From Janibacter alkaliphilus (lineage in GTDB: Bacteria > Actinomycetota > Actinomycetes > Actinomycetales > Dermatophilaceae), in assembly GCF_013408565.1 (NCBI RefSeq), contig NZ_JACBZX010000001.1:1364001-1428000 (forward strand): a DNA stretch of 64,000 bases, written 5' to 3'. Below, piece after piece: positions 38,149-48,283 of this stretch. The position numbers were made by a program, and so were the translations under genes. Below the pieces are notes generated by a model. The model searched no databases, had not been told where the DNA came from, and saw only the letters and a program-made list of their open reading frames with translations. Within the stretch, counting starts at the first letter, position 1. Every line of letters starts with the position of its first letter.

Positions 38149-38185
38149 ATCCCCCAAGTGCGCATCGTGGAGAGGCGTGGGGGAT
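38149..38185. promoter_or_regulatory. inverted repeat upstream of the Abi gene
   Basis: ATCCCCCA at 38149-38156 and TGGGGGAT at 38178-38185 form an 8-bp dyad with a 21-base centre, 22-58 bases before the Abi start. A possible operator; no other evidence. Confidence 0.35.
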
Positions 38186-45902: not shown

Positions 45903-46073
45903 GCAACTGCCCGGGCAGTTGCTCGTTCTGGTCCGCAACTGCCCGGGCAAATTGCAGTCCACCTCCGCAACTGCCCGGGCAATTCACACTCCTCCCGCAA
46001 CTGCCCGGGCAATTCACACTCCTCCCGCAACTGCCCGGGCAAATTGCAGCCACCTCCGCAGCCGCCCGGGCGA
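45903..46073. repeat. left palindrome array, six CCCGGG-centred units
   Basis: Units of GCAACTGCCCGGGCA followed by AATTCACACTCCTCCC-type spacers. Centres (CCCGGG) start at 45910, 45942, 45974, 46004, 46034 and 46065, i.e. steps of 32, 32, 30, 30 and 31. Unit 1 is a perfect 20-bp palindrome (45903-45922); later units keep the left arm GCAACTG and degrade the right arm to CAATT. The last is a diverged GCAGCCGCCCGGGCG. A mirrored array lies at 47595-47801. Confidence 0.9.
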
Positions 46074-46106
46074 ACGCGAGTGGACGGGCGAACGCGAGTG
46101 GACGGG
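46071..46106. repeat. 18-bp perfect tandem repeat
   Basis: CGAACGCGAGTGGACGGG is present twice head to tail (46071-46088, 46089-46106), directly after the last palindrome and before the crotonase promoter. Confidence 0.85.
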
Positions 46107-46183
46107 CGAGCGGCGGACAGTTGCGAAGGGGATGGGCGGTCGTCGGGTCACCGGGTGGGCTGCGCGGGGTCGGCGCGCGTGGC

Positions 46184-46198
46184 TACAGTCGTGCCGTG
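46184..46198 (+). promoter_or_regulatory. leaderless-type promoter of the crotonase gene
   Basis: TACAGT at 46184-46189 is six bases before GTG 46196, and no Shine-Dalgarno exists. The spacing repeats at several other genes of the window. Confidence 0.5.
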
Positions 46199-46930
46199 CC
46201 CGTGAGATACAGCGCCCCCGCGAGAGACAGCGCCGACGACCGGGTGGCCCGGATCGTCCTGGACCGCGCCGACGCCGGCAACGCCCTCGACCTCGTCACC
46301 GCCCGCGAGCTCAGCGACGCGGTCCGCCGCGGCCTGGGCAACCCCTACGCCGACGCGTTGGTGATCACCGCCGCCGGCCCCGACTTCTGCGTGGGCTCCG
46401 ACATCACCGCCGCCGAGGCGGCCGACGACCCGACCAGCGCCACCTTCGACCTGGCGGCCGCCCTGGACGACCTCTTCACCACCCTCAACAGCTCCCGCAA
46501 GCCCGTCCTCGTCGGCACGCACGGGCTCGCGGCCGGCTCGGGGCTCGGGCTGGCGCTGGCCGGCGACCTGACCTTCAGCACCGGGGACGCCACCTTCGCC
46601 GTGCCGCCCCGCGGCGGCAGCGGCGCGCCCGACCCCGGCCTGGCCTGGCTGCTGCCGCGCGGCATCGGGCAGCAGCGGGCGCTCTCCTTCGCCCTCAGCC
46701 GGCGCACCCTGGACGCTGCCACCGCCGAGGACTGGGGGATGGTCATCGTCGCCGACGACGTCGCCGCGGCGATCGAGGAGGCGGTCGGTTGGCTGGGCGG
46801 CGAGAACGTGTGGTCCAGCAGCGAGACCCGTCGCCTGCTGCGCTCCTCGTGGGAGACCTCGCGCGCCGAGCTGTCCCACTCCGAGGCGGCGACCATGGTC
46901 CGGGCCGTGCTCAACCGAAGCCGGGCCTGA
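46196..46930 (+). CDS. enoyl-CoA hydratase/isomerase (crotonase) family protein
   Basis: 244 residues. The crotonase fold is recognisable: RIVLDRADAGNALDLVTARELSDAV, ALVITAAGPDFCVGSDI (first oxyanion Gly region), SSRKPVLVGTHGLAAGSGLGLALAGDL (second oxyanion loop), and GLAWLLPRGIGQQRALSFALS. The general-base Glu pair of true hydratases is not evident, so the reaction may be isomerase- or thioesterase-like. GTG 46196 (or 46202). The gene and the next one sit alone between two mirrored palindrome arrays. Confidence 0.87.
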   Translation: MPVRYSAPARDSADDRVARIVLDRADAGNALDLVTARELSDAVRRGLGNPYADALVITAAGPDFCVGSDITAAEAADDPTSATFDLAAALDDLFTTLNSSRKPVLVGTHGLAAGSGLGLALAGDLTFSTGDATFAVPPRGGSGAPDPGLAWLLPRGIGQQRALSFALSRRTLDAATAEDWGMVIVADDVAAAIEEAVGWLGGENVWSSSETRRLLRSSWETSRAELSHSEAATMVRAVLNRSRA

Positions 46931-46939
46931 GGGGACGTC

Positions 46940-47542
46940 GTGGACGAGCAGCGTCGCCCCCGCCGGCCGTTGCACTTCGGCCCGGACGCGATGGAGGCCC
47001 ACGGCGGCACCACCCCCGACCCGGCGGAGGCGGCCGAAGCGGCGCACCAGGCGGCGCTGACCGTGATCGAGGCCGGTCGCCAGGGAGCCTCGCCGGAGAC
47101 CACCGCCCGGCTCGTGCGTCTCGTCGACGAGCTGGGCATCGACACCCTCGCGGAGCTGTGGTCGGCCCGCCCGGCGCGGAGCCTGCCCGGGGCGCTCTGG
47201 CGGCTCTACATGCTCCGGGAATGGGTGCAGCGCCAGCCGGAGCAGGCCGCGCGCGAGTACGGCGCCGGCATGGCCGCGGCCCCGGTGGCGCACGTGGTCA
47301 CCGGGATCGCCGAACCACCCGGCCCGGCGGAGGTGCTCACCCTCGCCGACCGCATCCTCGGAGGCGTCTTCGACGGTGACCTGGCCGTGGCGCTGGAGCG
47401 GGCCGGGTCCTTCTGCCGGGTGATCGCCACCGGGCGAGCACATCTGGAGGACTCCGAGGTGACCGCCGCGTCGCTCATGCTCGGCACGGCCGAGGACCTG
47501 GAGGCCGCCGCGGGGGCCTGGCGGGCCGGCGCCCTGCACTGA
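46940..47542 (+). CDS. unknown soluble protein in the array-flanked cassette
   Basis: 200 residues, mostly helical, no membrane segment or signal. Visible features: RRPLHFGPDAMEAHGGTTPD near the N-terminus, a helical middle (AALTVIEAGRQGASPETTARL) and ARSLPGALWRLYMLREWVQ. I cannot name the family; comparable proteins seem to occur in actinobacteria under misleading names. GTG 46940 lies nine bases after the crotonase stop, so the two form one operon. Nothing supports a specific reaction. Confidence 0.75.
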   Translation: MDEQRRPRRPLHFGPDAMEAHGGTTPDPAEAAEAAHQAALTVIEAGRQGASPETTARLVRLVDELGIDTLAELWSARPARSLPGALWRLYMLREWVQRQPEQAAREYGAGMAAAPVAHVVTGIAEPPGPAEVLTLADRILGGVFDGDLAVALERAGSFCRVIATGRAHLEDSEVTAASLMLGTAEDLEAAAGAWRAGALH

Positions 47543-47594
47543 TCCGGCCGCCGCCGGCGCCCTTCGACCTGTGGTCGTGTCGCCCCGTTCGTCC

Positions 47595-47801
47595 GCAGCT
47601 GCCCGGGCAGCTGCGCAAGGGGCGAAATTGCCCGGGCAGTTGCGGGGGAGGGGTGACATTTGCCCGGGCAGTTGCGCAGGAGGGGTGACATTTGCCCGGG
47701 CAGTTGCGGGAGGAGTGTGAACTGCCCGGGCGATTGCGGGAGGAGGGGTGAAATTTGCCCGGGCAGTTGCGGAGGTGGGTGAAGTTTGCCCGGGCAGCTG
47801 C
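47595..47801. repeat. right palindrome array, seven CCCGGG-centred units
   Basis: Reverse-oriented counterpart of the left array: units end in TTGCCCGGGCAGTTGC with spacers like GGGAGGAGGGGTGAAA. Centres start at 47602, 47631, 47663, 47695, 47725, 47758 and 47789 (steps 29, 32, 32, 30, 33, 31). The outermost unit near the unknown gene, GCAGCTGCCCGGGCAGCTGC (47595-47614), is a perfect 20-bp palindrome. The conserved arm faces away from the gene cassette in both arrays. Confidence 0.9.
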
Positions 47802-47846: not shown

Positions 47847-47948
47847 TAGGCTCCCGTGAGGTGCACCGGGCTGCGGTAGCCCCGGGTCCCACAATTCGCC
47901 GCTACGAGCGGCCGCGCGCCGTGAGGCGCTCCCGGCCCGGTGCACCTC
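47847..47948 (+). ncRNA. candidate structured RNA or leader upstream of DUF47-pit
   Basis: TAGGCT at 47847-47852 could be a -10 box. Just after it GAGGTGCACCGGGC (47858-47871) pairs perfectly with 47935-47948, a 14-bp closing stem. The 63-base interior holds further pairing options: GTAGC with GCTAC, and GCGCC-GTGA-GGCGC. It could be a small RNA or a 5' leader of the phosphate-transport genes. It matches no RNA family I can name; covariation is untested. Confidence 0.45.
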
Positions 47949-48179: not shown

Positions 48180-48283
48180 TACAGATGTCCGGGTGGCTCT
48201 ACGCTGGGCCCGCCCACCTGGACCTCCCGACCCGGGACGCGCCTACCTGGACCTGCCCCACCTGGACACCGCTCGGAGCTGCT

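Follow-up and report, generated by a model that had tools for sequence, protein, structure and literature searches.

Phased palindromic arrays in Janibacter alkaliphilus

Two arrays of short, near-palindromic units centred on CCCGGG occur in a stretch of 64,000 nucleotides of the Janibacter alkaliphilus genome (contig NZ_JACBZX010000001.1, positions 1,364,001 to 1,428,000; the whole stretch is hereafter called the window), and they are members of a family of arrays, similar to repetitive extragenic palindromic (REP) sequences, that is dispersed through the genome of this species. Dyads built on the same frame are enriched in ten further Janibacter genomes, and the cores read there differ from the CCCGGG core. 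We give an even chance to the reading that these phased arrays are recognised by a putative sequence-specific protein along one face of the DNA, with a core specificity that shifts by species.

A genome-wide search for the unit had been called for by the initial annotation of the window. In the single 3.32 Mb contig of J. alkaliphilus the 15-mer GCAACTGCCCGGGCA has 354 exact copies (178 and 176 on the two strands; reversed control 0 and 0), and it is present in none of 57 relatives, including 15 congeners. A two-core pattern likewise gave 259 matches in J. alkaliphilus and none in the 15 congeners. The two-unit pattern is absent from the viral_contigs set, for which reason a phage origin was set aside, and also from the genome_contigs set, which possibly does not contain J. 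alkaliphilus itself. Sixty-six stretches picked from the listed places of 15-mer or pattern matches, together with the window, were found to hold 433 units grouped into at least 76 arrays, each of 1 to 17 units, a census that is a lower bound. The arrays are intergenic, apart from one that extends 16 bp into a called gene. All-against-all comparison of 152 array-flanking proteins identified 20 related pairs, five of which are the same gene lying between two arrays (100% identity) and the remaining 15 of which share 26-35% identity. As the flanking proteins are mostly unrelated, the arrays are tied to no single kind of gene. The initial annotation had held that single units at hundreds of unrelated intergenic sites would reduce them to generic REP-like repeats; many such sites do exist, occupied by arrays.

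Within the window, CTGCCCGGGC (allowing at most one mismatch) has 83 matches against 34 expected, a count reached in 0 of 100 shuffles; chance is ruled out as the origin of these units. The left array (45903..46046, + strand) consists of five good units of GCAACTGCCCGGGCA followed by a mostly AAT/ATT arm. These start at 45903, 45935, 45967, 45997 and 46027, with start-to-start steps of 32, 32, 30 and 30 bp, the first being the full palindrome GCAACTGCCCGGGCAGTTGC. A sixth, degenerate unit, GCAGCCGCCCGGGCGAACGC, lies at approximately 46058..46077 (+ strand; family D2, 91% to the reference copy). The right array (47595..47801, - strand) has seven units of opposite polarity, with cores of TGCCCGGGCA or near it at 47600, 47629, 47661, 47693, 47723, 47756 and 47787, steps between unit starts of 29, 32, 32, 30, 33 and 31 bp, and the full palindrome GCAGCTGCCCGGGCAGCTGC as its first unit. 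Six units to the left and seven to the right of the gene pair, with opposite polarity, had been described by the initial annotation and are borne out by this listing. The full-palindrome first units had gone undescribed, as had an 18-bp tandem repeat, CGGGCGAACGCGAGTGGA (2.4 copies at 46067-46109), which is situated directly past the left array and is unrelated to the units.

Unit structure and helical spacing

Each unit is a 20-bp dyad, GCA-ACTGCCCGGGCAGT-TGC, usually with one arm altered. The consensus is GCAAC-TGCCCGGGCA followed mostly by A-A/T-T-C-A-C, that is, GCAACTGCCCGGGCA-AWTCAC. An exact core is present in 359 of the 433 units, while the arms are symmetric in all five bases in 34 units, in four of five in 41 and in three or fewer in 358. 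The GCAAC positions carry 1.6-2 bits of information and the mid-spacer positions 0.1-0.6 bit each, although conservation of the former is partly a selection artefact, as units were located and oriented by the core and GCAAC. The spacer part amounts to about 9-11 bp and is often alike within one array, with 300 distinct sequences among 357 spacers. Spacing is confined to 29-35 bp in 355 of 357 cases, with a mean of 31.37 bp, corresponding to three turns of B-DNA. This whole-turn spacing is the main reason for favouring a protein positioned on one face of double-stranded DNA over hairpins in RNA or passive tandem repetition. It also makes a landing site for a DNA-binding protein, the protein itself being putative, the best supported of the options offered by the initial annotation. 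The arrays would be read as double-stranded DNA by a probably dimeric protein, its copies lined up on one face of the helix.

Neighbouring units have the same orientation in 310 of 357 cases and opposite orientations in nine; the other 38 involve a unit scored as symmetric. Switches of orientation within arrays mostly run > then < (7 versus 2), and symmetric units are frequent at such switches or at array ends. Across the J. alkaliphilus stretches and 20 stretches of genomes G004, G006, G008, G012 and G014, the motif CCCCTTCG/CGAAGGGG is strongly enriched (37-103 per 100 kb versus 1-5 for GGGGAAGC) and often sits at array ends (GTTGCGAAGGGGG). A lone unit with the core of a sister species, GCAGCTGCCTAGGCAGTTGC, was also seen in J. 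alkaliphilus (L166:1501-1520; C1:1316689) and is possibly a relic of another core.

Placement of arrays relative to genes

Gene calls were made with a home-made codon-usage caller in place of a standard annotation. On these calls, the median distance from an array to a flanking stop codon is 25 bp (n=93) and to a flanking start codon 124 bp (n=59), and at tandem junctions the stop codon is the nearer of the two for 33 of 37 arrays. Convergent junctions are enriched (28 of 75 with arrays versus 25 of 174 without; Fisher 9e-5) and divergent junctions depleted (11 of 75 versus 58 of 174; Fisher 0.003), the 174 control junctions being array-free, at least 60 bp long and drawn from the same stretches, hence from array neighbourhoods. 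Array polarity at tandem junctions shows no clear preference with respect to transcription (19 versus 16, made up of 10 versus 9 and 9 versus 7). The idea that orientation is tied to transcription or to genome position was dropped for want of a clear bias. A row of proteins about 25 bp past the stop codon might act as an orientation-independent boundary against read-through into the next gene, although this part of the proposal is the weaker one.

Gyrase binds some of the bacterial interspersed mosaic elements (BIMEs) of Escherichia coli, and the excess of convergent junctions and the location of arrays behind genes would be consistent with comparable topology sites that relax positive supercoils past genes and between convergent genes. 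Gyrase is, however, a conserved enzyme that would need no new core in each species, and we regard this explanation as decidedly improbable.

Related arrays in other Janibacter species

Congener stretches picked without regard to dyads gave dyad arrays of like architecture outside J. alkaliphilus: GCAGGAGCCTAAGCAGTTGC in G006, GCACGACCTTAAGGAGATGC in G012, GCAAAACCCTAGGGTTTTGC in G008 and GCATTGCCCTAGGGGAATGC in J. terrae (G007), with a close form in Soil728. Every one of these dyads spans 20 bp, beginning with GCA and ending with TGC (GCA-N14-TGC). These ends were required by the clustering search only, the finds of two other searches being free of that requirement. No GCA/TGC cluster was detected in the sampled stretches of G004, G014, G005 and G003. 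In the clustering control, no cluster larger than 2 was obtained with the anchors ACG/CGT, GAC/GTC, CAG/CTG or AGC/GCT, but CGA/TCG produced clusters of up to 109, perhaps from repetitive coding motifs; because this last control also clustered, the GCA/TGC clusters rest on sequence and spacing as well as on size.

Genome counts show the cores to be distributed by species. GCANNNCCTTAAGGNNNTGC occurs 153 times in G012, 48 times in G015, 1-4 times in five other genomes and not at all in nine (reversed control 0). GCAGGAGCCTAAGCAGTTGC, allowing up to three mismatches, has 213 matches in G006, 98 in G013 (partly counted double, the contig ends seemingly overlapping), 51 in G014 and at most three elsewhere, with at most 10 per genome for the reversed control. 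GCANAACCCTNGGGTTNTGC was found in G008 only, with 34 and 31 copies. The common form GCANNNSCYYRRGSNNNTGC exceeds its reversed control by a factor of two or more in 11 of the 16 Janibacter genomes, with 62 to 243 copies each, whereas each of 170 family genomes outside the genus has at most 25 copies, with a ratio of at least 2, on small counts, in three of them (16/6, 14/5 and 6/3). In a small three-protein tree, J. alkaliphilus is located on a long, weakly supported branch. As to the G013 assembly, its dyad series at C1 60132-65739 recurs at 3464813-3470420, shifted uniformly by 3404681 bp; contig C1 thus appears to be an untrimmed circular assembly with overlapping ends.

Helical phasing is shared by these arrays. 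Of 75 distinct congener spacings of up to 110 bp, 29 measure 30-32 bp and the other 46 measure 39-45 bp, the interval of 33-38 bp being empty. Counted by array (cut at gaps over 70 bp; n=59), 22 have three-turn spacing only, 35 four-turn spacing only, two have both and none has any other. Each of the two spacings occurs in all five of G006, G008, G012, G013 and G014. Inspection by eye of the whole-genome place lists likewise revealed no neighbours at 33-38 bp, but did show spacings of roughly five turns in single cases, 51 bp in G012 and 52 bp in G014. If a protein reads these arrays, its specificity would change between species together with the cores.

Hairpins formed at the RNA level, either as an 8-bp stem with a 4-nt loop, in the case of a full palindrome, or by pairing of neighbouring cores, could end or stabilise the 3' ends of mRNAs. 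The location of arrays past stop codons fits such a role, as do the mostly complementary arms of the units in G008 and G007 and a locus of G012 (L140:7557-7710) at which a perfect dyad, GCACGACCTTAAGGTCGTGC, lies between an A-run and a T-run and between convergent genes, resembling a bidirectional intrinsic terminator. The arms are, however, mostly unpaired in J. alkaliphilus (358 of 433 units), in G013 (85 of 91 units matching at four or fewer of six positions, three of which are fixed by the GCA/TGC ends) and in G012 (13 of 14), and pairing gives no reason for one-turn steps. Hairpins are thus an unlikely explanation of the family. A known RNA family was also sought for the right array, with no match at gathering level; the best candidate, SorX (E 0.54), was sub-threshold and was rejected.

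The gene pair between the window arrays

The two arrays of the window enclose a crotonase/enoyl-CoA hydratase gene (46196..46930, + strand; PF00378) and a gene for a 200-aa protein without a Pfam family (46940..47542, + strand), both of which are ordinary neighbours lying outside the element. The 200-aa gene was found in all 15 congeners, with homologues in J. indicus, J. hoylei, J. terrae, J. anophelis, J. limosus, J. massiliensis and other Janibacter species. It is adjoined by the crotonase gene in 14 of the 15 congener stretches, that of G002 having no detectable crotonase though long enough to hold one. A PhoU-like gene is next in line in 14 of 15, and was not found in G007. Searches with nine dyad patterns (up to four mismatches) revealed no dyad on the left-array side in any of the 15 congener stretches. 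At the right-array site, past the 200-aa gene, the same patterns found six dyads at 42-bp spacing in G006, two in G013 and one degenerate dyad in G014, all with another core, and none in the other 12. At the G006 site the spacers alternate, indicating block duplication within the array. The gene pair is older than the arrays, given its wide conservation and the lack of left dyads in the congeners; the two window arrays have separate histories, since three congeners hold dyads at the right site without left ones.

The initial annotation had presented the gene pair and its mirror-image arrays as a two-gene cassette, and had suggested that they might be a mobile cassette or a regulated domain. 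No such unit is supported, as the window arrays are simply two neighbours among at least 76. Mobility of the gene pair together with its arrays was not borne out, the 200-aa gene being present in 15 of 15 congeners and the crotonase gene in 14 of 15, with left dyads in none. Nor do paired arrays stand out across the genome: six pairs of neighbouring arrays lie less than 2 kb apart, where arrays placed uniformly would give 3.6 (P 0.15), these involve just 12 of 76 arrays, and three of the six are arranged > .. < against 0.9 expected (P 0.058), which is near chance. In favour of paired arrays delimiting something are those three > .. < pairs and a J. alkaliphilus gene flanked by arrays on both sides (L035:3075-4392), whose homologue in G013 (L251; 52.6% identical) is likewise flanked by dyads. 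With the gene pair in place without the left array in 14 of 15 congeners, the cassette or domain interpretation is largely refuted and was rejected, and we consider it extremely improbable.

Several further features were seen in the window. A small, unrelated and degenerate 15/29-bp tandem repeat, CCCACCTGGACC, is located at the start of the PhoU-like gene (48204-48272). An element of approximately 80 nt (47866-47945), between the 200-aa gene and the PhoU-like and phosphate transporter genes, was recognised on visual inspection at 14 of the 15 congener loci, G007 excepted, and its closing stem stays paired despite two-sided changes (2 of 26 pairs, seven sequences). A search of Rfam gave no match for this element, which looks like an undescribed structured RNA. 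An abiF RNA (RF03085) was identified at 38149-38184 on the - strand, with a score of 41.3 against a gathering threshold of 37.

Conservation of array positions and assessment of the protein reading

A few sites are shared between species with differing cores: that of the window right array with G006, G013 and G014, L041 and L072 with G013, and L076 with G013 and G014. When G013 stretches were chosen for dyads, all four junctions of a conserved gene pair that have an own array in J. alkaliphilus were found to hold a dyad, compared with 0 of 15 non-array junctions (five of at least 60 bp and ten shorter). In 30 loci picked likewise, a dyad was found in three of three rows with an own array (two of which are one G013 site) and in 0 of 10 without. 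These counts of shared positions are biased by the choice of dyad-picked stretches.

Several points weigh against recognition of the arrays by a protein. In 40 stretches of ten congeners that were not picked for dyads, dyads were found in none of six own-array junctions with a conserved gene pair (four of these six are new; the other two are the window site in G004 and G010, where the lack of dyads had been established beforehand). The non-array junctions of the same stretches had a dyad in 1 of 27 cases with a gap of at least 60 bp and in 0 of 46 shorter ones. Array positions are thus generally not kept, which disfavours an essential role at each site; they either undergo quick gain and loss or are confined to a few hot-spot sites. 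The common form GCANNNSCYYRRGSNNNTGC is not enriched in five of the 16 Janibacter genomes (G001, G002, G004, G005 and G009), although one array of two CCTTAAGG-type units was found in G009. Because units duplicate in blocks, the spacings of a given array depend on each other, and the mostly complementary arms in G008 (27 of 33 units) and J. terrae G007 (7 of 7) leave room for a hairpin role. The array-binding protein is itself putative, with no candidate found; a copying mechanism in place of binding could be the source of unit conservation, and placement behind stop codons could reflect mere tolerance of insertions.

In a serious rival, the units are selfish or neutral REP-like repeats that spread replicatively, have no role for the host, and survive where they do no harm, past stop codons and away from promoters. 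It would account for the fact that positions turn over (none of six was shared in the stretches not picked for dyads), the species-specific cores, block duplication in arrays such as the alternating spacers at the G006 site, and the avoidance of divergent junctions. The congener spacings, restricted to 30-32 and 39-45 bp and never of 33-38 bp, are not predicted by it unless the copying machinery is helically constrained, and the Y1 or REP-associated tyrosine transposase (RAYT), the best-known engine of REP spreading, was not found in the 16 genomes. We hold a neutral repeat tolerated behind genes to be possible rather than likely.

The protein reading can be taken further, to a fast-evolving protein that binds double-stranded DNA at hundreds of sites. 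The cores would then have been switched in concert between species (CCCGGG, CCTAAG/CCTAGG, CCTTAAGG and CCCTAGGG), even at the few junctions where species share an array, without any change in the frame (GCA-N14-TGC) or in the spacing of three or four turns. This extended version is put forward tentatively, and we rate it as somewhat doubtful.

Comparison with known repeat systems

The best-studied REP families go with RAYT transposases. A search for the corresponding domain (PF01797) at E 0.001 was negative in all 16 genomes of the genus, with the control positive in 5 of 14 named genomes, and RAYT-driven REPs were therefore rejected as the identity of the family. Nor was a GTAG or CGTC tag seen in the J. 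alkaliphilus unit position table or in the listed congener units. In the broad sense the Janibacter units qualify as REPs, being short palindromes present in more than 100 copies and intergenic. Compared with the REPs, BIMEs and REPINs covered in a REP survey (PMC3733652), they are similarly short near-palindromes, present at more than 100 per genome, intergenic, mostly past genes, often clustered and species-specific, but they lack the GTAG/CGTC tag, the RAYT gene and the alternating orientation (310 of 357 neighbour pairs point the same way, which separates them from BIMEs), and have whole-turn spacing instead. CGTC-type REPs, as described in that survey, are likewise dispersed palindromes without a dedicated transposase; the Janibacter arrays differ in having no CGTC tag and in being phased, head-to-tail and provided with variable spacers. 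The host lists of the survey do not contain this phylum, and "actinobacteria" occurs 0 times in its text (PMC3733652). REP candidates for three Actinomycetota genomes, none of them Janibacter, are given in a 2025 tool paper that has 0 mentions of Janibacter (PMC12306157).

Iteron arrays of plasmid origins consist of protein-bound direct repeats of about 20 bp set at whole helical turns. The Janibacter arrays are similar in repeat size and in whole-turn unit spacing, seen in J. alkaliphilus and five congeners, but differ in having a palindromic core and in numbering at least 76 per chromosome. Prokaryotic satellites (PMC6749651) are also species-specific repeats dispersed through one genome. 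Unlike in satellites, whose whole period is conserved, the Janibacter unit is conserved and the spacer is not (300 of 357 distinct), and relatives share the plan with other cores. Clustered regularly interspaced short palindromic repeats (CRISPR) also combine a conserved repeat with a variable spacer of near-constant length; here, however, unit and spacer sizes do not fit, the variable part being limited to some 9-11 bp and frequently similar from spacer to spacer in one array, the unit is palindromic and there are 76 arrays. No description of the Janibacter arrays was found in the open-licence papers searched, among which the unit sequence matched only an unrelated human circular RNA paper and the Janibacter papers retrieved dealt with other subjects, judging from their titles and opening abstract lines, and within the open-licence papers searched the earlier statement that no element of such a plan has been described holds.

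The Janibacter arrays constitute a genus-level family in which no RAYT was found, with a nearly fixed spacer length, a free spacer sequence and whole-turn spacing, a combination that points to a protein partner which might be fished out with array DNA. The change of core from species to species offers a natural series in which to study the joint change of sites dispersed in their hundreds, a problem more commonly posed for the satellites of eukaryotes. Should the arrays act as boundaries, they would provide a DNA-level separation of convergent genes in a high-GC genome, that of J. alkaliphilus being presumably poor in T-run terminators. If the concerted switching of cores with a fast-evolving protein is true, these arrays would be a bacterial counterpart of satellite DNA coevolving with its binding protein.

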